NCBI RefSeq assembly: GCF_030704685.1
Contig: NZ_JAUZDX010000002.1
Span: 1 to 64,000 of the forward strand
Source: Acidovorax sp. A1169
Lineage (GTDB): Bacteria > Pseudomonadota > Gammaproteobacteria > Burkholderiales > Burkholderiaceae_C
Length of the DNA: 64,000 nucleotides
Direction: 5' to 3'
Below the pieces are notes generated by a model. It saw nothing but the letters and a program-made list of their open reading frames with translations, was not told the origin of the DNA and did no database searches. Positions 35,630 to 48,998 of the stretch are shown here, in pieces; positions within the stretch are counted from its first letter, which is position 1; each line of letters starts with the position of its first letter. The position numbers and the translations under genes were made by a program.

Positions 35630-35892
35630 CCCCGGTCGAGCTGCTGGCCAACCACGCCCGCCAGATCGGCGCGGCCGGGCATTTCGATGCCCGCAGCCAG
35701 GAGCCCATGCCCTCGCCCTGCATCTCGGTGTGCCGCATGTCACCCGACCGCAGCCACTGCGAGGGCTGCTTTCGCACGCTGGACGAGATCCGCATCTGGG
35801 GCAGCGCAGACAGCACCGTGCGCCGAGCCATCTGGGCGCAGTTGCTGCTGCGTGCAGGCATTCCCACCGCTGATACGGAGACACTGCCATGA
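35626..35892 (+). CDS. DUF1289 small cysteine-motif protein
   Basis: Predicted 88-residue protein. Cys32, Cys36, Cys45 and Cys48 in PCISVCRMSP and HCEGCFRTLDEI fit the DUF1289 metal-binding module, usually followed by a Trp near IW. The ATG at 35626 overlaps the YbaK stop. Its own stop overlaps the next gene (ATGA at 35889-35892). Function unknown; the tight coupling suggests one translational unit of three genes. Confidence 0.9.
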   Translation: MTPVELLANHARQIGAAGHFDARSQEPMPSPCISVCRMSPDRSHCEGCFRTLDEIRIWGSADSTVRRAIWAQLLLRAGIPTADTETLP

Positions 35893-36542
35893 AGCGCATC
35901 ACTTTTTACCTGGATTTCATTTCGCCCTATGCCTGGCTGGCCTTCGAGCGCCTGCCCGAGGTGCTGGAGGGGCTGAGCTACAGCGTGGCCTACAAACCCG
36001 TGCTGCTCGGTGCCCTGCTTGCGCAGCACGCCAACCCGGGCCCGGCCGGCATCGCGCCCAAGCGCGACTGGACCTACCGCCATGTGACCTGGCTCGGCCA
36101 TGCCCATGGCATCGGGCTGCAGATGCCGGCGCGCCACCCCTTCAACCCGCTGCCGCTGCTGCGCCAGGCCCTGGCCTGCAGCGACGACGGCCACATCAAC
36201 CGCTACGTGGCCGGGACTGTGCTGCGCCATGTCTGGCAGGGCGGGCAGGACGCGCTCGATGCTGGGCGCATGGCCACGCTGGCCGCGGCCCTGGCCGAGC
36301 AGCTTCGCCCAGGGCAGGACATCGCCAGCGAGGCCCCCAAGGCGCTGCTGCGCGCCAACACCGAGGCCGCGCAGGCCGCCGGCGTGTTCGGCGTGCCTGC
36401 CTTCGAGGTCGATGGCAAGCTGTTCTGGGGGCTCGATAGCCTGCCCATGCTGCGCGCCTACCTCGATGGCGATGCATGGTTTGAGGGGCCGGACTGGGAC
36501 GGCGTGGGCGGGGTTCCTTCGGGACTGGCCCCCAAGGGCTGA
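35889..36542 (+). CDS. 2-hydroxychromene-2-carboxylate isomerase-like (DsbA-fold)
   Basis: Predicted 217-residue protein of the kappa-GST/DsbA-like family. The N-terminal FYLDFISPYAWLAFERL places Ser12-Pro13 at the active-site position of HCCA isomerase, where GSH binds. A cis-Pro motif is in GVFGVPAFEVDGKLFWGLD. No naphthalene-degradation genes are near, so the physiological substrate may differ. Start ATG overlaps the stop of the DUF1289 gene. Confidence 0.9.
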   Translation: MKRITFYLDFISPYAWLAFERLPEVLEGLSYSVAYKPVLLGALLAQHANPGPAGIAPKRDWTYRHVTWLGHAHGIGLQMPARHPFNPLPLLRQALACSDDGHINRYVAGTVLRHVWQGGQDALDAGRMATLAAALAEQLRPGQDIASEAPKALLRANTEAAQAAGVFGVPAFEVDGKLFWGLDSLPMLRAYLDGDAWFEGPDWDGVGGVPSGLAPKG

Positions 36543-36584
36543 AGGAGGCCGGAGGCCAGGCGGGGCAGGTTATTCTTGGCCTCG

Positions 36585-38150
36585 ATGCACATCGCCCTTG
36601 TCAACCCACCCCACACCGCCATCGGCAGCCGCATTCCGCGCGAGCACCTGCCGCCGCTGGGCCTGCTGTGCGTGGGTGGGCCGCTGCTGGATGCCGGCTA
36701 CCGGGTGAAGCTGATCGATGCCGAGCTGGCCCCGCTCACGCTTGAGCAGATCGTGCAGGCGGTGCTGCAGTCGGGGGCCGACACCGTGATGGTCGGGCAC
36801 TCCGGGTCGAGCTCCGTGCATGCCACGGTGCTGCAGCTGTGTCTGCTGCTCAAGCAGGCGCTGCCCGCGCTTCGCACCATCTACGGCGGCGTGCACCCCA
36901 CCTACCACTGGGACGAGATCCTTGAGGAATGTGCCGCCATCGATCTCATCGTGCGCGGCGAGGGGGAGCAGACTACGCTGGACCTGGTTCGGGCGCTGGA
37001 GCGCGGTGCGCCCCTGGCCGGTGTCGATGGCATTGCCTACCGCGATGCATACGGCCGTGCCATGGCCACGGCCAATGCTGCGATGCTGCGCAGGCTCGAT
37101 GACTACCGCGTGGGCTGGGAGCTGATCGACCATGCCGACTACTCCTACTGGGGTGGCAAGCGTGCGGTGTTGGTGCAGTTCGCGCGCGGCTGCCCCTACC
37201 TGTGCAACTACTGCGGCCAGCGCGGTTTCTGGACCCAGTGGCGCCACCGGGACCCGGTGCTGCTCGCCAGGGAGCTGGCCCGGCTGCACCGCGAACACGG
37301 CGTGGAGCTGGTCAACTTTACCGACGAATTGCCAACAGGTTCGCGCAAGGCGTGGCGCGCATTCCTGGAGGCGCTGATTGCCGAGGACGTGCCGCTGCTG
37401 CTCGTGGGGTCCACGCGCGCAGGCGACATCGTGCGCGACGAGGACATCCTGCACCTGTACCGGCAGGCCGGCGTGATCCGCTTCCTGCTGGGCATCGAGA
37501 GCTACGACGAGGCCACCCTCCAGGACATCCGCAAGGGTGGCAGCATGGGCGAGGACCGTCGCGCCATCCAACTGCTGCGCCAGCATGGCATTGTCTCGAT
37601 GGCGACCTACGTTGTGGGTTTCATGGAAGAGTCCGACGCCGACTTCTGGAAGTCCTTCCGGCACCTGCTGCGCTACGACCCTGACCAGGTGCAGTTGCTG
37701 CATGCCACGCCGCACCGCTGGACGCCGTTCTACGCCACGGTGGAAGACCGCAGGGTGATCCAGACCGACACGCGGCGCTGGGACTACAAGCACCAGGTGC
37801 TGGAAGCGCCCGGCGTGCCCGCATGGCGGGTATTTTCCTGGTTCAAGACCCTGGAAGTGCTGATGCAGGTGCGGCCCAAGGTGCTGTGGCGCCACCTGTT
37901 CCACCGCGATGCCGACTACCGCCATGCCATGCGCTGGTACACCCGCATCGGACGGCGCGTGTGGTTCCATGAGGTGGCGGAATTCCTGTTCGATACCCGC
38001 CTGCTCAAGGACGGCCCCACGCTCAAGGCGTTTCTGGGTGGCTCGCTGGCCGAGCGTGAATATGCGCTTGACACGCGCCGCCGGCCTGCCCCCACCTTTT
38101 CCATCCCGGTGGTGCCGGTGCGCGACGAACAGCAGCGGCAGCCGGGCTGA
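36585..38150 (+). CDS. B12-binding radical SAM protein, BchE-like
   Basis: Predicted 521-residue radical SAM enzyme. An N-terminal cobalamin-binding domain starts with MHIALVNPPHTAIG and has HSGSSSVHATVLQ and YGGVHPTY. The [4Fe-4S] motif is CPYLCNYC with Cys203, Cys207 and Cys210, followed by GQRGFWTQWRHRDP, which recalls the segment after the cluster in BchE, the anaerobic Mg-protoporphyrin monomethyl ester cyclase. The remainder also resembles BchE (a DEDILHLYRQAG stretch). No other bacteriochlorophyll gene is seen, so the substrate is uncertain. Start is ATG 36585; a TTG at 36576 is less likely. Confidence 0.9.
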   Translation: MHIALVNPPHTAIGSRIPREHLPPLGLLCVGGPLLDAGYRVKLIDAELAPLTLEQIVQAVLQSGADTVMVGHSGSSSVHATVLQLCLLLKQALPALRTIYGGVHPTYHWDEILEECAAIDLIVRGEGEQTTLDLVRALERGAPLAGVDGIAYRDAYGRAMATANAAMLRRLDDYRVGWELIDHADYSYWGGKRAVLVQFARGCPYLCNYCGQRGFWTQWRHRDPVLLARELARLHREHGVELVNFTDELPTGSRKAWRAFLEALIAEDVPLLLVGSTRAGDIVRDEDILHLYRQAGVIRFLLGIESYDEATLQDIRKGGSMGEDRRAIQLLRQHGIVSMATYVVGFMEESDADFWKSFRHLLRYDPDQVQLLHATPHRWTPFYATVEDRRVIQTDTRRWDYKHQVLEAPGVPAWRVFSWFKTLEVLMQVRPKVLWRHLFHRDADYRHAMRWYTRIGRRVWFHEVAEFLFDTRLLKDGPTLKAFLGGSLAEREYALDTRRRPAPTFSIPVVPVRDEQQRQPG

Positions 38151-38205
38151 GCGTTCAGTGGGCGGCCATCGGCGCTCATTCTTACGGACGCGCCGTCAGC
38201 TTCGA

Positions 38206-38223
38206 GGGGGCGCAGGCGCCCCC
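38206..38223. terminator. GC-rich hairpin after radical SAM gene
   Basis: GGGGGCG (38206-38212) pairs perfectly with CGCCCCC (38217-38223) across CAGG. It is about 55 bp after the radical SAM stop. No T-run follows, so it may be a weak or Rho-assisted terminator. Confidence 0.4.
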
Positions 38224-38277
38224 CAGCCGGGGCTTTCCCGCATGCTGAAAGCGGGTGCAAGGGTTTCACCTTAAGTT

Positions 38278-38404: not shown

Positions 38405-40075
38405 ATGGCAACCCATCCCGCACCGCGGCCGATGACCGCCGAAGAGAAGAAGGTCATCTTCGCTTCGTCGCTCGGCACCGTTTTCGAGTGGTACGACTTT
38501 TATCTGTACGGCTCGCTCGCAGCCATCATTGCCAAGCAGTTCTTCAGCGGTCTGGATGCGGGCGCGGCCTTCATCTTTGCGCTGCTGGCCTTCGCGGCGG
38601 GTTTCCTGGTGCGGCCTTTCGGCGCCATCGTGTTCGGCCGCCTGGGCGACATGATCGGGCGCAAATACACCTTCCTGGTCACCATCCTGATCATGGGTCT
38701 GGCGACCTTCATCGTCGGCCTGCTGCCGAGCTATGCCACCATCGGCGTGGCCGCTCCCATCATCCTGATCGCATTGCGCATGCTGCAAGGCTTGGCGCTC
38801 GGCGGTGAGTACGGCGGTGCCGCCACCTACGTGGCCGAGCATGCCCCGCACGGCAAGCGCGGTGCCTACACCTCGTGGATCCAGACCACGGCCACGCTGG
38901 GCCTGTTCCTGAGCCTGCTGGTGATCCTGGGTGTGCGCCTGAGCCTGGGCGAAGCCGTGTTCCAGGACTGGGGCTGGCGCATTCCGTTCCTGGTGTCTAT
39001 CCTGCTCCTGGGCATCTCGGTGTGGATCCGCCTGTCGCTGTCGGAATCTCCAGCCTTCCAGAAGATGAAGGCCGAGGGCAAGACCTCCAAGGCACCGCTG
39101 TCCGAATCCTTCGGCCAATGGAAGAACCTGAAGATCGTGATCCTGGCGCTGGTGGGCCTGACCGCCGGCCAGGCCGTGGTCTGGTACTCGGGTCAGTTCT
39201 ACGCGCTGTTCTTCCTGACGCAGCAGCTCAAGGTGGACAACACCACCGCCAACCTGCTGATCGCTGCCGCACTGCTGCTGGGCACGCCCTTCTTCGTGGT
39301 GTTCGGTACGCTGTCGGACAAGATCGGCCGCAAGCCCATCATCATGGCCGGTTGCCTGCTGGCCGTGGTGACCTACTTCCCCGTCTTCAAGGCGCTGACC
39401 GAAGCCGCCAACCCTGACCTGGCCAAGGCCCAGGCAACGGCCGGAGTGGTGGTGACGGCCGACCCCGCGTCGTGCTCCTTCCAGGGCAACCCGGTGGCCC
39501 GCGAGATCGACTTCCGCAGCTCTTGCGACATCGCCAAGCGCTACCTGGTGCAGAACTCGGTGAGCTACGACAACGTGGCAGGCCCTGCCGGCTCCAAAGC
39601 CGTGGTCAAGATCGGCACCAAGACCGTTGAGGCGCCGACCGGGACTGTGGTGAACCTCAAGTTCGACGAAGCCTCCGCCAAGTCCATCGCCGCCTTCAAG
39701 AAAGAAGTGGCCGATGAGCTGAAGGTCGCCGGTTACCCGACCAAGGCCGACCCTGCCAAGACCAACAAGGTCCTGACTGTGGTGCTGCTGTTCTGGCTGG
39801 TGCTGCTGGTGACCATGGTGTATGGCCCCATTGCCGCCATGCTGGTGGAAATGTTCCCGACCCGCATCCGCTACACCTCGATGAGCCTGCCCTACCACAT
39901 CGGCAACGGCTGGTTCGGCGGCCTGCTGCCCACCACGGCCTTCGCCATCGTGGCCCAGACCGGCAACATGTACAACGGCCTGTGGTACCCCATCATCATT
40001 GCGGGCATGACCCTGGTGATCGGCACGCTGTTCATCCGCGAAACCAAGGACGTGGACATCTACGCCAACGACTGA
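38405..40075 (+). CDS. MHS-family MFS transporter with large inserted domain
   Basis: Predicted 556-residue inner-membrane transporter of the metabolite:proton symporter family. It starts MATHPAPRPMTAEEKKVIFASSLGTVFEWYDFYLYGSLAAII, typical of MHS proteins, and has the conserved RPFGAIVFGRLGDMIGRK loop and GEYGGAATYVAEHAPHGKRG. Usual members are about 430 residues. Here about 120 extra, mostly hydrophilic, residues lie near residues 333-455, between the segments around LLAVVTYFPVFKAL and VLTVVLLFWLVLLVTM, with cysteines in PASCSF and SSCDIAK. The substrate is probably an organic acid or osmolyte. AGGAGACAAACC precedes the start. Confidence 0.92.
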   Translation: MATHPAPRPMTAEEKKVIFASSLGTVFEWYDFYLYGSLAAIIAKQFFSGLDAGAAFIFALLAFAAGFLVRPFGAIVFGRLGDMIGRKYTFLVTILIMGLATFIVGLLPSYATIGVAAPIILIALRMLQGLALGGEYGGAATYVAEHAPHGKRGAYTSWIQTTATLGLFLSLLVILGVRLSLGEAVFQDWGWRIPFLVSILLLGISVWIRLSLSESPAFQKMKAEGKTSKAPLSESFGQWKNLKIVILALVGLTAGQAVVWYSGQFYALFFLTQQLKVDNTTANLLIAAALLLGTPFFVVFGTLSDKIGRKPIIMAGCLLAVVTYFPVFKALTEAANPDLAKAQATAGVVVTADPASCSFQGNPVAREIDFRSSCDIAKRYLVQNSVSYDNVAGPAGSKAVVKIGTKTVEAPTGTVVNLKFDEASAKSIAAFKKEVADELKVAGYPTKADPAKTNKVLTVVLLFWLVLLVTMVYGPIAAMLVEMFPTRIRYTSMSLPYHIGNGWFGGLLPTTAFAIVAQTGNMYNGLWYPIIIAGMTLVIGTLFIRETKDVDIYAND

Positions 40076-40590: not shown

Positions 40591-41721
40591 CTACCGTTTA
40601 AACCGGCCGTCCGTTCCGATGATGGAGAGGTCCGAGAAATCCAGGCCCGAGTGGTCGCTGCTGCTGTAGGAGAGGGTGAGCCCGCCCATGTCCCAGTTGC
40701 GGATGCCCTCCAGGCCCGCGTGCAGCTTTGCGCGGTCGGGCTTGGGGCCGGCGCGCTTGAGGCCTTCCACCAGCACCTTGGCGCTGACGAAGCCCTCCAC
40801 CATGGCCGGGGTCAGTTCGCTCACGCCGCCAGCCTTGGCCAGGTCCATGGCCTCCTTGATCAGCGCGTAGTTCACCGACCGCTCGGAGGGGAAGACCTGC
40901 GTCACCACTACGCCGCGCGCGCTTTCGCCCAGGGCCTTCACGAAGCCGCCCGAGGCGTTGTTCGACAGGGTCACGATCTGCCCGGTGACGCCCGCAGCGC
41001 GCAGCGCCTTGATGCCGTCCACCACGGCGGCACCAGTGCCGATGAAGACGACGGCCTGGGGCTGTTTCTGCGCCACGCGTGGGGCGATGGCGGCATAGTC
41101 GGGCTTGGCGCGGTCGAACTTCTCGATGAACAAGGCCTCGATGCCGTTGGCCTTGAAGCCTGCCTGTGCACCGGCCAGCCCGTCGGCCCCGAAGGTGTCG
41201 TCCACGTGCACGACGCCGATCTGCTTGATGCCCAGGGTGTTGAGGTGGGTGATGGCTTTCTCCACCTCGCGCTGGTAGGTGGCGCGCACGTTGAAAACGT
41301 ACTTGAGCACCGGCTTGTGCAGCACCATGGCGCCGGTGGATGGGCCGATGAGCGGCACGCCATGCTGTTCCAGCACCGCAACGATGCCCTGGGTGTGGGG
41401 CGTGCCGCGCGTCATGAAAAGACCGATCACGCCCTTCTGCTCGATGAGCGTACGGGTGTTCTCCAGAGTCAGCTTGGGGTCGAACTTGTCATCGAGCGTG
41501 ATGACCTCGACCTTTTGCCCCGCCACGCCGCCGCGCGCGTTGACATGGTCGATGTAGAGCGACGCGCCCTTCATGGACTCCTGCACCGTGGCGGCGGCCG
41601 AGCCGGTCACGCCCACGGTCTGGCCGATCAGGATCTGCGCATGCGCCACGCCCCCGATGGCCAGCAGGGCGAGGACGGCGCTGGCCGTGAACGGGTGGAT
41701 GGCGGCGGCAACGTTCTTCAT
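40591..41721 (-). CDS. ABC transporter substrate-binding protein (paralogue B)
   Basis: Predicted 376-residue periplasmic binding protein of the branched-chain amino acid (LivJ-like) class. A signal peptide ends near GGVAHAQ. The mature protein begins ILIGQTVGVTGSAAATVQE and has the typical IDHVNARGGVAGQKVEV. ATG 41721. It shares many residues with the downstream-numbered paralogue, including the C-terminal LSIIGTDGRFKR, and is transcribed after it with a 100-bp gap. No permease or ATPase gene is adjacent. Confidence 0.9.
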   Translation of the reverse strand: MKNVAAAIHPFTASAVLALLAIGGVAHAQILIGQTVGVTGSAAATVQESMKGASLYIDHVNARGGVAGQKVEVITLDDKFDPKLTLENTRTLIEQKGVIGLFMTRGTPHTQGIVAVLEQHGVPLIGPSTGAMVLHKPVLKYVFNVRATYQREVEKAITHLNTLGIKQIGVVHVDDTFGADGLAGAQAGFKANGIEALFIEKFDRAKPDYAAIAPRVAQKQPQAVVFIGTGAAVVDGIKALRAAGVTGQIVTLSNNASGGFVKALGESARGVVVTQVFPSERSVNYALIKEAMDLAKAGGVSELTPAMVEGFVSAKVLVEGLKRAGPKPDRAKLHAGLEGIRNWDMGGLTLSYSSSDHSGLDFSDLSIIGTDGRFKR

Positions 41722-41821
41722 GGAGACCCTGTCGGAGGTATGTGGCAGTGTAGGGTGAAGGTGTGACAAATGGTAGCCACAAAAAGGCGATTGGCGCCAC
41801 CCCCATCCACAAGACAGGGGC

Positions 41822-42940
41822 TCAGCGGCGGAACTTGCCGTCCGTGCCGATGATGGACAGGTCGGCAAAGTCCAGGCCGGTGTGGTCGTCGGGGCCGAAA
41901 CTCAGCTCCAGGCCCCCGAGGTCGAACTTGCGGATGCCTTCCAGCGCCGCCTGGATCTTCTCGCGCGTGGGCTTGGGGCCGGCGCGCTTGAGGCCCTCGA
42001 CCAGCACCTTGGCGGCTGCGAAGCCTTCGAGCATGGCGGGGCTGATGTCGCCCACTCCCTTGGCCTTGGCCAGTTCCTGCGCCTCCTTGACCATGCCGTA
42101 GGTCACGGCGCGCTCGTTGGGGTAGACCTGGGTCACGATCACGCCGCGCGCATTGGCGCCCAGGCTCTTGATGAAACCGCCCGAGGCGTTGTTGGACAGG
42201 GTCACGATCTGCGCACCCGAGCCCGCTGCCCGCAGCGCGGTGCCGGCATCCACCACGGCCGAGCCCGAGGCGACCATCAGCACGGCCTGCGCCTGGGCCT
42301 TGGCGACCTTGGCGGCAATGGGTGCAAAGTCCGGCTTGGCGCGGTCGAACTTCTCCAGCACCACGGCGGTCAGCTTGCTGGCGGCCAGGCCCTTCTGGGC
42401 ACCCGTCACGCCATCGGCGCCAAAGCTGTCGTCGGCGTACATCACCGCGATGCGGGTGATGCCCATGGAGGCCAGGTGGGTCATGGCCTTTTCGGCCTCG
42501 CGCTGGTAGGTGGCACGGACGTTGAAGATGTTCTTGCGCACCGGCTGGTGCAGTACCATGGCACCCGTCGAGGGGCCGACCAGCACGACGCCATGCTTGT
42601 CCAGCAGCGGAATCATGGCCTCGGTATGGGGCGTGCCGCGCGTGAGGAACATGGCCAGCACGTTCTTGTCCTCGATCAGCACGCGGGCGTTCTCGGCGGC
42701 CAGCTTGGGGTCGAACTTGTCGTCCATCGAGATCAGCTCGATCTTCTGCCCGTTGACGCCCCCCTTGGCGTTGACCGCATCAATGAACAGCTTCGCGCCG
42801 TCCGAGGTTTCTTTCACGCCCGCCGCGACCTGGCCCGAGTAGCCTGCCGTCTGCCCGATCAGGAGCTGGGCATGGCCCGTGCCGCACAGCGCCGCTGCGA
42901 GGACGGCTGCGGTCCCCCATTGTTTCCATGTGGTGTTCAT
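41822..42940 (-). CDS. ABC transporter substrate-binding protein (paralogue A)
   Basis: Predicted 372-residue periplasmic binding protein paralogous to the neighbour at 40591. Signal sequence MNTTWKQWGTAAVLAAALC ends near GHAQ. The mature start LLIGQTAGYSGQVAAGVKE and the C-terminal LSIIGTDGKFRR match the paralogue closely. The ATG lies just before a gap of 181 bp to uvrA. Ligand is likely an amino acid, amide or aromatic acid, not resolved. Confidence 0.9.
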   Translation of the reverse strand: MNTTWKQWGTAAVLAAALCGTGHAQLLIGQTAGYSGQVAAGVKETSDGAKLFIDAVNAKGGVNGQKIELISMDDKFDPKLAAENARVLIEDKNVLAMFLTRGTPHTEAMIPLLDKHGVVLVGPSTGAMVLHQPVRKNIFNVRATYQREAEKAMTHLASMGITRIAVMYADDSFGADGVTGAQKGLAASKLTAVVLEKFDRAKPDFAPIAAKVAKAQAQAVLMVASGSAVVDAGTALRAAGSGAQIVTLSNNASGGFIKSLGANARGVIVTQVYPNERAVTYGMVKEAQELAKAKGVGDISPAMLEGFAAAKVLVEGLKRAGPKPTREKIQAALEGIRKFDLGGLELSFGPDDHTGLDFADLSIIGTDGKFRR

Positions 42941-43121: not shown

Positions 43122-46100
43122 ATGACCCAGGGACTGATACGTATCCGCGGCGCACGCCAGCACAACCTCAAGAACCTGGATCTGGACATCCGCACCGGGG
43201 AGCTCACGGTGGTCACGGGGCCCAGCGGCTCGGGCAAGTCCAGCCTGGTCTTCGACACCCTGTATGCCGAAGGGCAGCGGCGCTATGTGGAGACCTTCAG
43301 CGCCTATGCGCGCCAGTTCCTGGACCGCATGGACAAGCCGGCCGTGGACAAGGTCGAAGGCGTGCCGCCGGCCATCGCCATCGACCAGACCAACCCGGTG
43401 CGCAGCTCGCGCTCCACCGTGGGCACGATGACGGAGCTCAACGACCATCTGAAGCTGCTGTTCGCGCGCGCCGGCCAGCTGTTCGACCGCGCGACCGCCC
43501 AGCCGGTGCGCCACGACAGCCCCGAGACCATTTACGCCGAGCTGCAGCACCGTTGCGCCGCAGGCGGTGATCCGCGCGTCGTGCTCACCTTCCCGGTCGA
43601 ACTGCCTGCCAACACCTCGGCCGAGCAGGTCGAGCAGTGGCTGTCGGCCAGCGGCTTCACCAAGGTGCAGGCCGAGCGCGAGGTGGCCACGCCCACCGGC
43701 CCGCGCAAGCTGCTTGACGTGGTGGCCGACCGCTTTCGCCTGGGCAATGCCGAGAAGGCGCGCGTGATCGAGGCCATCGAGGTGGCCTTGAAGCGCGGCA
43801 CCGGGCGCCTCAATGTCTACCGCCTGGGTGATGCACCTGAGGCCGATCCCGAACTGTGGCGCTTTTCCACCGGGCTGCACTGCCCCGACAGCGATTTGCG
43901 CTACAGCGACCCGATTCCGTCGATGTTCTCGTTCAACTCCGCCGTGGGCGCTTGCGAGACCTGCCGGGGCTTTGGCCGCGTGATCGGGGTGGACTACGGC
44001 CTGGTGATCCCCAACGACAAGCTCACCTTGCGCGCTGGCGCCATCAAGACCATCCAGACCCCGGCATGGAAAGAGGCGCAGGACGACCTCATGCGCCACG
44101 CCGAGGCGGCGGGTGTGCCGCGCGACACGCCTTGGTACAAGCTCACCGAGGACCAGAAGAAATGGGTCATCGGCGGCACGCCCGGCTACAAGGACGGGCA
44201 GTGGAGCAAGCAGTGGTACGGCATCAAGCGCTTTTTCGAGTACCTGGAGAGCAAGGCCTACAAAATGCACATCCGGGTGCTGCTGTCCAAGTACCGCAGC
44301 TACACGCCATGCCCCACCTGCGCCGGCGCGCGCCTCAAGACCGAGAGCCTGCAGTGGCGCATCGGCAGCAAGGACGCGGCCGATGCGGTGCTCGAGCCCG
44401 GCCGGCGCTTCATGCCCGAGGGCGTGCAATGGAGCCGCGCCCAGCTTGAAGCCCTGCCGGGCCTGTGCCTGCACGACCTGATGCTGCTGCCCATCGATCG
44501 GCTGCGGCGCTTCTTCGACCGCATCGACTTCGTGGCCGAAGGCGGGCAGGGCAACGAGGGCGACGCCCAGGCCCTGAAGCTGCTGTTCGAGGAAATCACC
44601 ACGCGCCTCAAATACCTGTGCGACGTGGGCATCGGCTACCTCACGCTGGACCGGCAAAGCCGCACGCTGAGCGGCGGCGAGGTGCAGCGCATCAATCTGA
44701 CCACGGCGCTGGGTACTTCGCTGGTCAACACCCTGTTCGTGCTCGACGAGCCCAGCATCGGCCTGCACCCGCGCGACATGCACCGCATCACCGAGGCCAT
44801 GCTGCGCCTGCGCGATGCAGGCAACACCCTGGTGGTGGTGGAGCACGACCCGGCCGTGATGCTTGCGGCCGACCGCATGATCGACATGGGCCCCGGCCCT
44901 GGCCGCCTGGGCGGGCAGATCGTCTTTGACGGCACCACGGCCGACCTGCGCCATGCCGACACCCTCACAGGTGCCTACCTGAGCGGGCGCAAGCATGTGG
45001 GCTTCGGCTTTAAGCGCATGGTGACCGAGGCCACGCCGCGCCTGGTCCTCGAAGGGGCGCGCGAGCACAACCTGAAGGACGTGTCGGTGGAGTTCCCGCT
45101 GCAGCGCCTGGTCACCGTCACCGGCGTCAGCGGCTCGGGCAAGTCGAGCCTGATCCAGGACGTGCTGGCCCCCGCGCTGCTGCGCCACTTCGGCAAGGCC
45201 ACCGACTCGCCGGGCGCGCACGAGCGCATGCTGGGCGCCGACCACCTGTCTGATGTGGTGTTCGTGGACCAGTCGCCGATCGGCAAGACGGCGCGCTCCA
45301 ACCCCGTGAGCTATGTGGGCGCGTGGGACAGTGTGCGCGAGCTGTTCGCCGTGGCCCCGCTGGCCAAGCAGCGCAGCTACACCGCCGCCAAGTTCAGCTT
45401 CAACAGCGGCGACGGGCGCTGCCCGACCTGCGGCGGATCGGGCTTCGAGCATGTGGAGATGCAGTTCCTGTCCGACGTCTACCTGCGCTGCCCCGATTGC
45501 GACGGCAAGCGCTACCGCCCCGAGATCCTGGAGATCACCATCGAGCGCGGTGGCCGCGCGCTCAACGTGGCCGACGTGCTGGCCCTCACCGTGGCCGAAG
45601 CCGCCGACCTGTTCGCCAGCGACCGCGACGTGATCCGTGCGCTGCAGCCCATCGTCGACGTGGGGCTCGAGTACGTGGCCCTGGGCCAGCCCGTGCCCAC
45701 GCTGTCGGGCGGCGAGGCACAGCGCCTGAAGCTCGCGGGCTTTCTGGCCGAGGCGGCGCGCACGGCGGCCAAGTCGCGCCAGGCCATTGCGCGCAAGGGC
45801 ACGCTGTTCCTGTTCGACGAGCCCACCACGGGCCTGCACTTCGACGACATCGCCAAGCTCATGCGCGCCCTGCGCAAGCTCATCGACGCGGGACATTCGC
45901 TGATCGTGATCGAGCACAACCTGGACGTGATCCGCGCCAGCGACTGGCTCATCGACCTGGGCCCCGAGGGCGGCGACGGCGGCGGCCTGGTGGTGGCCGA
46001 GGGCACGCCCGAGGACGTGCGCCAGCATGCCACCTCCCACACCGGCCAGGCGCTGCGCGACTACGAGCTGACCCTGGGTGCCGGTGGCCATTCGGTGCAC

Positions 46101-48998
46101 GAGAAGGCGGCGGTGCTGCGCAACCAGCAGCGCCTGGCCCATACCGGCCAGGCCAACACCTCCAAGAACGCCATCGAGATCATCAACGCCAAGGAGCACA
46201 ACCTCAAGAACCTGAGCGTGGACATCCCGCGTGGCCGCTTCAACGTGGTGACGGGCGTGAGCGGCTCGGGCAAGTCCACGCTGGCCTTCGACATCCTGTT
46301 CAACGAAGGCCAGCGGCGCTACCTCGAATCGCTCAACGCCTATGCGCGCAGCATCGTGCAGCCTGCGGGCCGGCCCGAGGTGGATGCGGTCTACGGCATT
46401 CCGCCCACGGTGGCCATCGAGCAGCGCCTGTCGCGCGGGGGGCGCAAGTCCACCGTGGGCACGACCACCGAGGTCTGGCACTTCTTGCGCCTGCTGTACG
46501 TCAAGCTGGGCACGCAGCACTGCGTGAAGGACGGTGCCGCCGTGCAGCCTCAGACGCCCGAGAGCATTGCCGCCCAGCTGATGCGCACCTTCCGCGGCCA
46601 GCATATCGGCCTGCTCGCGCCGCTGGTGATGAACCGCAAGGGCGTGTACACCGAGCTGGCCGACTGGGCACGCCCGCGCGGCTTCACGCACCTGCGGGTG
46701 GATGGCAACTTCTTGCCGACCACGGGTTTCCCGCGCATCGACCGCTTCAAGGAGCACACCATCGAGCTGCCCGTGGCCAGCATAGACGTGTCGGCCGAGG
46801 GCGAGGCGCTGCTGCGCGAATCGCTGGCCCAGGCGCTTACGCACGGCAAGGGCGTGGTGCACGTGCTCAGCAGCCTCGAAGGCCTGCGCGCGGCCATGGT
46901 CGCCGGCACGCCCACAGCGGCCATCGGCACGCTGCAGGCGTTCTCGACCAAGCGCGCCTGCCCGGTGTGCGCCACCTCGTATGCCGAGCTCGACCCGCGC
47001 CTGTTCAGCTACAACAGCAAGCACGGCTGGTGCCCCGATTGCGTGGGCACGGGCGTCAAGCTCACCAAGGACCAGCGCAAGGTGTTCGACGACTCGGTGC
47101 AGGACGACAAGGAAAAGGGCCGTGAGCAGACCTTTGCCGAGCCCGAGGTCGAAGACCTGGCCGATACTGCCTGCCCTGGCTGCCAGGGTACGCGCCTGAA
47201 CCCCACGGCGCGCGCCGTGCGGTTTGCGGGCATCGGCATCACCGACATCGCGGCCCTGTCGGTCACCGACGTGCGCCGCTGGGTCGAGACCCTGCAGATC
47301 GAAGGCGGCATGAGCCGGCGCGAGGCCGACATCGCCCGCGACCTGGTGCCCGAGATCAAGAGCCGTCTTGAATTTCTCGAAGAGGTGGGCCTGGGCTACC
47401 TCACGCTGGACCGGGGCGCACCCACGCTCTCGGGCGGCGAGGCGCAGCGCATCCGCCTGGCGGCACAGCTGGGCAGCAACTTGCAGGGCGTGTGCTACGT
47501 GCTCGACGAGCCCACCATCGGCCTGCATGCGCGCGACAACCAGATCCTGCTCAACGCCCTGCACAAGCTCGGCGACAAGGGCAACACGCTGGTGGTGGTG
47601 GAGCATGACGAGGACACCATCCGCCGTGCCGACCACATCATCGACATCGGCCCGAGCGCCGGCAAGCGGGGCGGGCGCCTGGTGGCGCAAGGCAGCGTGG
47701 CCGACATCACGGCCGCCGAAGATTCGCAGACCGGCCGCTACCTGCTGCACGCCATGAAGCACCCGCTGCAATTGCGCCGCAGCATGCTGCCGAGCGAGCT
47801 GAGCGCAGCCGACGCCGCCTTGGGCGATCCCGTGGATGCGCCCAAGGGCCGGCAAAGCGCGGCGGTGAAGAAGCGCGCCGCGCAGGCCGCAGCGCTCACT
47901 GCGCAGGCACTGGACGATGCCAAGGCGCGAGCCGCCATCCGCTGGCTCACCGTGCATGGCGCGCACCTGCACAACCTGCAGAACGTGACGGCCACCGTGC
48001 CGCTGCACCGCCTGGTGGCGGTCACCGGTGTGAGCGGCTCGGGCAAGTCCACGCTGGCGCGCGACGTGCTGCTGACCAATGTGCAGTCCTGGGTGCAGCA
48101 GCGCTCGACCAAGGCCGGGCGCGATGCCATGGACGCGGGCAAGGCCCCGGCCCTGGTGGGTTGCACGGGCCTGGCGGGCTTCGAGTCGGTGGACCGGGTG
48201 CTGGAAGTGGACCAGACTCCCATCGGCAAGACGCCACGCTCCTGCCCCGCGACCTACATCGGCTTCTGGGACACCATCCGCAAGCTGTTTGCCGAGACGC
48301 TGGAGGCCAAGGCGCGCGGCTATGCCGCCGGGCGCTTCAGCTTCAACACCGGCGAGGGCCGCTGCCCGACCTGCGAAGGCCAGGGCATACGCACCATCGC
48401 CATGAGCTTTCTGCCCGATGTGAAGGTGCCTTGCGAGGCCTGCCACGGCGCGCGTTTCAACCCCGAGACGCTGGCCGTGACCTGGCGCGGCAAGAGCATC
48501 GGCGACGTGCTGCAGATGGAGGTCGACGAAGCCGTGGACTTCTTCGCAGCCATGCCCAGCATTGCGCACCCGCTGCAACTGCTCAAGGACGTGGGCCTGG
48601 GCTACCTCACGCTGGGCCAGCCTTCGCCCACGCTTTCGGGTGGCGAGGCGCAGCGCATCAAGCTCGTGACCGAGCTCACCAAGGTGCGCGACGAGGTGGG
48701 CCGCCGCGGCCAGAAGGCGCCGCACACGCTCTACGTGCTCGACGAACCCACCGTGGGCCTGCACATGGCCGACGTGGACAAGCTCATCCGCGTGCTGCAC
48801 CGCCTGGTCGATGGCGGGCACAGCGTGGTGGTGATCGAGCACGATCTGGATGTGATCGCCGAGGCCGACTGGATCATCGATCTAGGGCCCGAAGGGGGCA
48901 AGGAGGGTGGCCGCATCGTGGCCGCCGCGGCGCCGGAAGCGGTGGTGCAACTGGGCACGCACACGGGGGTGGCGCTGGCTCCGGTGCTGGCGCGCTGA
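43122..48998 (+). CDS. uvrA: Double-length UvrA-like ABC ATPase (fused UvrA)
   Basis: Predicted 1958-residue protein made of two UvrA-like halves. Four Walker A loops are present: GPSGSGKSSL near residue 31, GVSGSGKSSL near 666, and GVSGSGKSTL near 1043 and 1633. Matching signature motifs (LSGGE) and Walker B (LDEP or FDEP) lie beyond each. Both halves keep zinc-finger cysteines, including GRCPTCGGSGF with CPDCDGKRY in half 1 and GRCPTCEGQGI with CEACHGARF in half 2. The join is around residues 985-1010. Canonical UvrA is about 940 residues, so this is a tandem fusion as in double-size UvrA homologues. Its role in excision repair versus drug tolerance is uncertain. Confidence 0.93.
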   Translation: MTQGLIRIRGARQHNLKNLDLDIRTGELTVVTGPSGSGKSSLVFDTLYAEGQRRYVETFSAYARQFLDRMDKPAVDKVEGVPPAIAIDQTNPVRSSRSTVGTMTELNDHLKLLFARAGQLFDRATAQPVRHDSPETIYAELQHRCAAGGDPRVVLTFPVELPANTSAEQVEQWLSASGFTKVQAEREVATPTGPRKLLDVVADRFRLGNAEKARVIEAIEVALKRGTGRLNVYRLGDAPEADPELWRFSTGLHCPDSDLRYSDPIPSMFSFNSAVGACETCRGFGRVIGVDYGLVIPNDKLTLRAGAIKTIQTPAWKEAQDDLMRHAEAAGVPRDTPWYKLTEDQKKWVIGGTPGYKDGQWSKQWYGIKRFFEYLESKAYKMHIRVLLSKYRSYTPCPTCAGARLKTESLQWRIGSKDAADAVLEPGRRFMPEGVQWSRAQLEALPGLCLHDLMLLPIDRLRRFFDRIDFVAEGGQGNEGDAQALKLLFEEITTRLKYLCDVGIGYLTLDRQSRTLSGGEVQRINLTTALGTSLVNTLFVLDEPSIGLHPRDMHRITEAMLRLRDAGNTLVVVEHDPAVMLAADRMIDMGPGPGRLGGQIVFDGTTADLRHADTLTGAYLSGRKHVGFGFKRMVTEATPRLVLEGAREHNLKDVSVEFPLQRLVTVTGVSGSGKSSLIQDVLAPALLRHFGKATDSPGAHERMLGADHLSDVVFVDQSPIGKTARSNPVSYVGAWDSVRELFAVAPLAKQRSYTAAKFSFNSGDGRCPTCGGSGFEHVEMQFLSDVYLRCPDCDGKRYRPEILEITIERGGRALNVADVLALTVAEAADLFASDRDVIRALQPIVDVGLEYVALGQPVPTLSGGEAQRLKLAGFLAEAARTAAKSRQAIARKGTLFLFDEPTTGLHFDDIAKLMRALRKLIDAGHSLIVIEHNLDVIRASDWLIDLGPEGGDGGGLVVAEGTPEDVRQHATSHTGQALRDYELTLGAGGHSVHEKAAVLRNQQRLAHTGQANTSKNAIEIINAKEHNLKNLSVDIPRGRFNVVTGVSGSGKSTLAFDILFNEGQRRYLESLNAYARSIVQPAGRPEVDAVYGIPPTVAIEQRLSRGGRKSTVGTTTEVWHFLRLLYVKLGTQHCVKDGAAVQPQTPESIAAQLMRTFRGQHIGLLAPLVMNRKGVYTELADWARPRGFTHLRVDGNFLPTTGFPRIDRFKEHTIELPVASIDVSAEGEALLRESLAQALTHGKGVVHVLSSLEGLRAAMVAGTPTAAIGTLQAFSTKRACPVCATSYAELDPRLFSYNSKHGWCPDCVGTGVKLTKDQRKVFDDSVQDDKEKGREQTFAEPEVEDLADTACPGCQGTRLNPTARAVRFAGIGITDIAALSVTDVRRWVETLQIEGGMSRREADIARDLVPEIKSRLEFLEEVGLGYLTLDRGAPTLSGGEAQRIRLAAQLGSNLQGVCYVLDEPTIGLHARDNQILLNALHKLGDKGNTLVVVEHDEDTIRRADHIIDIGPSAGKRGGRLVAQGSVADITAAEDSQTGRYLLHAMKHPLQLRRSMLPSELSAADAALGDPVDAPKGRQSAAVKKRAAQAAALTAQALDDAKARAAIRWLTVHGAHLHNLQNVTATVPLHRLVAVTGVSGSGKSTLARDVLLTNVQSWVQQRSTKAGRDAMDAGKAPALVGCTGLAGFESVDRVLEVDQTPIGKTPRSCPATYIGFWDTIRKLFAETLEAKARGYAAGRFSFNTGEGRCPTCEGQGIRTIAMSFLPDVKVPCEACHGARFNPETLAVTWRGKSIGDVLQMEVDEAVDFFAAMPSIAHPLQLLKDVGLGYLTLGQPSPTLSGGEAQRIKLVTELTKVRDEVGRRGQKAPHTLYVLDEPTVGLHMADVDKLIRVLHRLVDGGHSVVVIEHDLDVIAEADWIIDLGPEGGKEGGRIVAAAAPEAVVQLGTHTGVALAPVLAR

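Follow-up and report, generated by a model that had tools for sequence, protein, structure and literature searches.

Gene and protein at the locus

The gene under study lies at 36585-38150 (+) of the window, by which we mean the whole stretch of 64,000 nucleotides that was analysed, and its open reading frame of 521 aa begins with ATG and has no internal stop. The encoded protein is called P0001 here; P0001 and its close relatives are called the BchE-like family. The features of the protein and of its surroundings are as follows:

35889..36542, + strand: left flank, DSBA-fold gene that adjoins the right flank in relatives (Pfam, alignment)
about 36543..38231, no strand: segment missing in the 11 congeners that were read (flank alignments)
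36585..38150, + strand: BchE-like cobalamin-dependent radical SAM protein, 521 aa, stop included (ORF, NCBIfam, Pfam)
36648..36983, + strand: B12-binding domain PF02310, aa 22-133 (Pfam, 66.6 bits, cut-off 32.1)
36795..36815, + strand: GHSGSSS loop, aa 71-77, behind predicted strand 3; H72 is a candidate residue under cobalt
37176..37664, + strand: radical SAM domain PF04055, aa 198-360 (Pfam, 69.5 bits, cut-off 29.5)
37191..37214, + strand: CxxxCxxC cluster motif CPYLCNYC, aa 203-210 (sequence, pattern count)
37707..37724, + strand: TPHRWT motif, aa 375-380; BchE has TPWPF at the same place
37779..37802, + strand: WDYKHQVL motif, aa 399-406; BchE has YNFVTPI at the same place
38405..40075, + strand: right flank, MFS transporter gene (start codon selected here; listed ORF from 38255)

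With an N-terminal B12-binding Rossmann domain and a radical SAM domain carrying CxxxCxxC, P0001 has the layout of a class 1 cobalamin-dependent radical SAM enzyme. Its cluster motif (C203, C207, and C210) is followed by GQRGFWTQWRHRDP. The best named family in NCBIfam is TIGR02026, BchE (503.9 bits, E 5e-151, cut-off 481.35), the second-best is HpnR (113.6 bits against a cut-off of 650), and P0001 stays under the curated cut-off of all 23 NCBIfam families listed besides BchE, HpnR and HpnJ included. A sequence-only reading of this DNA had remarked that the cobalamin domain, CPYLCNYC, and the segment FW..WRHRDP recall BchE. Since both domains exceed their Pfam cut-offs and TIGR02026 is best by a wide margin, that observation is real: the frame is intact, the BchE cut-off is passed, and the FW..R.RDP stretch matches FWRDYRVRDP of BchE, although other BchE-invariant segments differ.

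Separation from BchE

Our first tree comprised 64 rows: 26 of the BchE-like family; 12 of BchE, including two plasmid bchE-bchJ genes whose hosts are not necessarily phototrophs; and 26 others, B12 radical SAM-type proteins known here solely as matches of the BchE model. Each of the three groups falls on one side of a branch, with support of 100/100 for the BchE-like family, 100/100 for BchE, and 99/97 for the join of both. The second tree, of 36 rows and including two divergent relatives (L120 and L121), places these two and the BchE-like family apart from BchE at 100/100, and support for the join with BchE falls to 88/70. In the first tree P0001 stays apart from the 26 other rows of B12 radical SAM type, and in both trees it lies outside the clade of BchE from phototrophs. 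The join itself is deep and sits between long branches (stems of 2.8 and 3.65, flagged by the program).

Identity to P0001 is 56.3-77.5% within the BchE-like family (25 sequences), 44.4 and 46.0% for the divergent relatives L120 and L121, and 29.3-35.3% for BchE (12 sequences). Pattern counts draw the same line: GHSG[ST][ST] and TPH.WT each occur in 28 of 28 rows (26 of the BchE-like family plus the two divergent relatives), while TPWPF and NY[HR].GGAEIAG each occur in all 12 BchE; the pattern WDY.xQVL, as written, misses two of the 28 rows (L005 and L058). P0001 and BchE are alike in domain order, in CxxxCxxC, and in the segments FW..R.RDP, ADE.PT, and TR..DI.RD, and hhalign aligns them with a probability of 100 over 393 columns at 31% identity. 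They are unlike in that NYHSGGAEIAG, TPWPF, and YNFVTPI of BchE are replaced by NPPHTAIGSR, TPHRWT, and WDYKHQVL in P0001, which also has about 24 additional residues in its C-terminal part; the BchE-invariant NYHSGGAEIAG and TPWPF are thus absent from P0001, and other residues stand at those positions across the BchE-like family. Behind strand 1, BchE has NYHSGGAEIAGNW where the BchE-like family has NPPHTAIGSR. TAITPSIY, which follows strand 3 in BchE, is set against GHSGSSS in an alignment of the strand-3 loop that is gapped and uncertain. Histidine occurs in the strand-3 segment of two of the 12 BchE, in both cases before the strand (HAPD, HQPD) and never in the loop.

From these comparisons we conclude that the BchE-like family is, by its sequences, a distinct sister family of BchE, and that P0001 is intact and misnamed. 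The kinship of the two families is likely but not certain, being based on the join in the trees, the direct profile comparison, and the TIGR02026 scores. Because the join is deep, lies between long branches, and stands at 88/70 with other sampling, the inference of a BchE-like chemistry is soft.

Photosynthesis markers in carrier genomes

As markers of photosynthesis we used PF00124 (PufL/M), TIGR02021 over cut-off (BchM), and TIGR02029 at E 1e-20 (AcsF). Every one of the 30 genomes searched and of the 14 control genomes has matches to the BchM model below its cut-off, which is expected of methyltransferases in general; only matches over cut-off were therefore counted. The six positive controls with BchE proper (G625, G561, G506, G025, G106, and G322) all contain PF00124 and BchM over cut-off. 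In the genome that encodes P0001 (6.8 Mb in 82 contigs, completeness 100), PF00124 has no match, BchM none over its cut-off, and AcsF none at E 1e-20, so that, by these three markers, this genome contains no photosynthesis cluster. Neither PF00124 nor BchM over cut-off was found in 23 of the 24 carrier genomes (the own genome, G593, G386, G726, G597, G509, and those of loci L005-L022). BchM makes the substrate of BchE, Mg-protoporphyrin IX monomethyl ester (MPE), which is therefore not expected in these 23.

The exception is Rhizobium sp. G21 (L019, G779), in which puf genes, BchM, and AcsF are present. They lie at 432-443 kb of contig C2 and the BchE-like gene lies at 650 kb of the same contig, about 213 kb from AcsF; no second BchE-type match was found in this genome at E 1e-30. 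Its nearest relatives in the tree, G777 and G778, possess the BchE-like gene and lack all three markers. We also observed that one puf match of this contig (431840-443077) comes in two overlapping pieces, as if frameshifted.

That P0001 is a true BchE, retained or transferred and acting on a neighbour's porphyrin or on residual Mg-porphyrin, is suggested by its passing the curated TIGR02026 cut-off and by the FW..R.RDP, ADE.PT, and TR..DI.RD segments held in common. We regard this as very improbable, given its place outside the BchE clade, the other residues at BchE-invariant motifs, the 23 carriers that have neither BchM over cut-off nor a reaction centre, and the presence of AcsF in the lone carrier with phototrophy markers.

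Two plasmids, of Skermanella mucosa and of a Rhodobacteraceae strain, bear bchE-bchJ pairs of the true BchE clade (L075 3716-5924 and L080 3713-5957), and no other annotated photosynthesis gene was seen in the 9 kb read. The bchE-bchJ pair alone may be another orphan.

Distribution, selection, and history of the locus

Relatives of P0001 at 58-77% identity are carried by 19 loci of the genome_contigs set, including loci of Pseudomonas otitidis, P. alcaligenes, Fluviicoccus, Rhizobium, Aquabacterium, Ideonella, Ramlibacter, Methylobacter, Povalibacter, Pseudorhodobacter, a Myxococcota MAG, and a Planctomycetota MAG. Plasmids carry further relatives, namely plasmids of Sphingobium and one of 38 kb from the cyanobacterium Allocoleopsis; exact peptide patterns retrieved no viral carriers from IMG/VR. 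A search of 399 genomes of the own taxonomic family returned nine matches: five other carriers, the own genome, and three BchE proper (34-35%). Across 398 genomes of the phylum, 33 have a match at E 1e-40; 13 of these (the own genome included) score above 370 bits and the others at most 265 bits. Outside the own genus the gene appears stable: of 146 genomes in the genus of G822, 109 carry it (seven of the 109 being partial or split matches), as do 4 of 18 in the genus of G766; the former genus would be of rhizobial type, judging from a gene order that it shares with Rhizobium loci. The Planctomycetota MAG contig (L005) holds a copy 75% identical to P0001, with upstream genes that look planctomycete-like by eye, in which case the gene would have been transferred across phyla.

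The BchE-like family is under purifying selection, dN/dS being 0.05-0.15 in all six pairs of relatives. Broken or partial copies exist nonetheless (G932, G889, and the seven matches mentioned for the genus of G822), and the gene is therefore dispensable in places. Three copies appear broken or split, at L122 8669-9826 (-), L123 8626-9807 (+), and G1331 C15:95385-96904, through a stop codon, a frameshift, or an assembly error.

Within its own genus P0001 occurs in one of 47 genomes, and the left neighbour (35889-36542), which we take to be 2-hydroxychromene-2-carboxylate isomerase-like, in 45. We read the best 12 of these 45 left-neighbour matches, one of which is the own genome; in each of the other 11, all relatives, the left and right flanks adjoin: the alignment ends are 5-124 bases apart, and the BchE-like gene has no match. 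The GC content of the gene (0.672, against 0.676 for the window) and its codon score, which is within the range of nine neighbours, do not mark it as foreign, and hence the case for a gain is made by the empty sites. On these counts we read the gene as a local acquisition by this lineage, probably a horizontal one; its loss from all the relatives sampled could also explain the pattern, though less simply. By identity, the nearest proteins to P0001 come from Fluviicoccus and Pseudomonas (76-78%), those of its own family group (G-genomes and A. terrae) being at 73-74%; this order fits a transfer as far as pairwise identities go, the trees giving no resolved nearest neighbour.

The same data bear on a suggestion of the sequence-only reading, that the gene is a relic, here a decaying one, of a phototrophic ancestor of the lineage. 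Its orphan state, its patchy occurrence, and the broken copies elsewhere speak for such a history. It is nevertheless scarcely credible in view of the single carrier among 47 congeners, the empty sites in all 11 relatives, the intact reading frame, the purifying selection in relatives that are not phototrophs, and the place of P0001 outside the BchE clade.

Gene neighbourhood and regulation

Neighbouring proteins were compared all against all, at 28 loci (24 carrier loci, three BchE controls, and the window, with L023 and L063 from the same genome) and, in a second comparison, at 36 loci. Among the 40 and 60 clusters listed for the two sets, no neighbour is shared by more than close relatives, except for widespread protein families that stand at different positions (by eye, LysR-type at seven loci, ABC-type ATPase at seven, and TonB-type receptor at four). 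In the genus of rhizobial type a two-gene pair stands directly beside the BchE-like gene in six of the eight loci read; by eye we presume it to be an Lrp-type regulator next to a phenylalanine-hydroxylase-like gene, and we take the pair as shared ancestry of the site and not as functional evidence.

The consensus of an FNR-type box is TTGAT-N4-ATCAA, and a scan of the 400 bases that precede the conserved start in each of 26 genes revealed no common site of this kind. The best fits have one mismatch in one gene, two mismatches in four genes (two of them close relatives), and three to five in the other 21.

The sole operon-like setting that we saw for the wider BchE-like family is in L120 (4494-9072, -), where the divergent relative is followed in a tight run by SDR/DoxX-like, DUF2269 membrane, and epimerase-type genes; the run could fit the handling of a ketone or alcohol product, as a single case. 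In L126 (10650-11375, -) and L122 (10455-11198, -), two genomes of one genus, an undecaprenyl-diphosphate-synthase-family gene lies beside the BchE-like gene, Pfam having been run on the L126 copy alone.

Structure and the residue under cobalt

The AlphaFold model of P0001 has a mean pLDDT of 70.2, with values below 50 at aa 171-196 and 199-222, a range that spans the cluster motif. Its Foldseek list is led by TsrM, MgmA, OxsB, CysS, and TokK; with VIA these have Z 16-19, tied with AprD4 (19.3), which is not known to bind cobalamin. No BchE entry is among the PDB matches listed, by sequence or by fold. The fold is thus like that of OxsB, TsrM, and TokK, as in class 1, on a model of this mean pLDDT. 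OxsB and AlsB resemble P0001 in fold (Foldseek E 2e-14; Z 18) at 15-18% identity. According to PMC13331322, these two enzymes leave no methyl group in the product and use a common nucleotide as substrate; OxsB acts in a natural-product pathway, where it depends on OxsA to keep a shunt product from forming.

In the class 1 enzymes of solved structure, the loop after strand 3 puts a residue under cobalt: Asn186 in OxsB, Arg69 in TsrM, and Trp76 in TokK (PMC13331322). For BchE a four-coordinate base-off signal is reported (PMC13142503). In our model strand 3 is predicted at aa 67-70, and the profile alignment sets H72, a histidine invariant in the BchE-like family, on Asn186 of OxsB with low per-residue confidence. 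The invariant GHSG[ST][ST] loop therefore hints at H72 as a candidate histidine under cobalt; if H72 does bind cobalt, the family would be unlike the structures treated in PMC13331322.

Methylases such as TsrM and CysS are likewise among the fold matches, and PMC13142503 states that the majority of known class members are presumed to be methylases. P0001 might be a B12 radical SAM methyltransferase that resembles BchE through shared ancestry only, and the deep join with BchE, at only 88/70 in the second tree, leaves room for this. We consider it unlikely, since the methylase models listed by NCBIfam give scores much lower than that of the BchE model and well short of their own cut-offs, and the first tree joins P0001 with BchE at 99/97. 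HpnR and HpnJ, hopanoid B12 radical SAM enzymes, share the domain order of P0001 and reach 114 bits (cut-off 650) and 88 bits (cut-off 578).

Proposed function

Our preferred reading, which we hold with moderate confidence, is that P0001 represents a cobalamin-dependent radical SAM subfamily other than BchE, oxidative and non-methylating, with a substrate other than MPE, and acquired as a single gene. The sequence-only reading had offered a B12-dependent enzyme with another substrate as one of its options, and this option gains support from the separate clade, the altered BchE-invariant motifs, and the 23 of 24 carriers without BchM.

In the mechanism that we propose, Cys203, Cys207, and Cys210 would hold a [4Fe-4S] cluster that cleaves SAM to a 5'-deoxyadenosyl radical, which would take an H atom from the substrate; base-off cobalamin in the N-terminal Rossmann domain would then capture or oxidise the substrate radical, and the product would be oxidised or ring-closed instead of methylated. 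By analogy, on the strength of the kinship with BchE, oxidation or ring closure seems clearly likelier than methylation. The substrate would be a compound of ordinary heterotrophs other than Mg-protoporphyrin IX monomethyl ester, a heme-branch tetrapyrrole being one candidate. As there is no conserved partner gene, it is probably a common metabolite. What the data show are the domains, the cluster motif, the separate clade, the missing phototrophy markers, the selection, and the empty sites; the oxidative, non-methylating chemistry, the role of cobalamin, the position of H72 under cobalt, and the substrate class are all inferred.

A bolder version is that the family forms a His-on subfamily, unlike BchE, OxsB, TsrM, and TokK, in which a single enzyme oxidises or ring-closes a common metabolite; the metabolite may be a heme-branch tetrapyrrole, and the hosts would include rhizobia and pseudomonads among other heterotrophs. 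This we advance tentatively and would not expect to hold in full.

Naming and significance

TIGR02026 is passed by 23 of the 24 carriers (472-554 bits across the 24, with G774 failing at 472.2), and the three BchE proper of the class score 781-841 bits. The cut-off therefore does not separate the two clades, and such proteins are named BchE; plasmid records of the BchE-like family are indeed annotated bchE. We infer that, through this label, anaerobic chlorophyll synthesis can be wrongly claimed for non-phototrophs and for genomes in which bchE is reported outside a photosynthesis cluster. Such a report exists for Myxococcota (PMC10576062), whose bchE sequences are given 60-80% identity to other phyla; they may or may not belong to the BchE-like family.

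A literature search of titles and abstract openings, with subscription journals largely outside its reach, retrieved no account of BchE-like proteins as a family of non-phototrophs. According to PMC13142503 and PMC13331322, few cobalamin radical SAM enzymes that do not methylate are known, and what cobalamin does in them is still to be settled. With another residue beneath cobalt, this widespread sister family would allow a direct comparison with BchE, and its presence in 109 of 146 genomes of one genus, together with selection, points to an unrecognised reaction.

Two further features of the window drew our attention. At 43122-48998 (+) a single reading frame encodes a protein of 1958 aa that is UvrA-like by eye, the usual length of UvrA being about half of this. 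Between it and the MFS transporter gene, at 40591-41868 (-) and 41822-42940 (-), lie neighbouring, similar-looking proteins of the periplasmic substrate-binding type (by eye).
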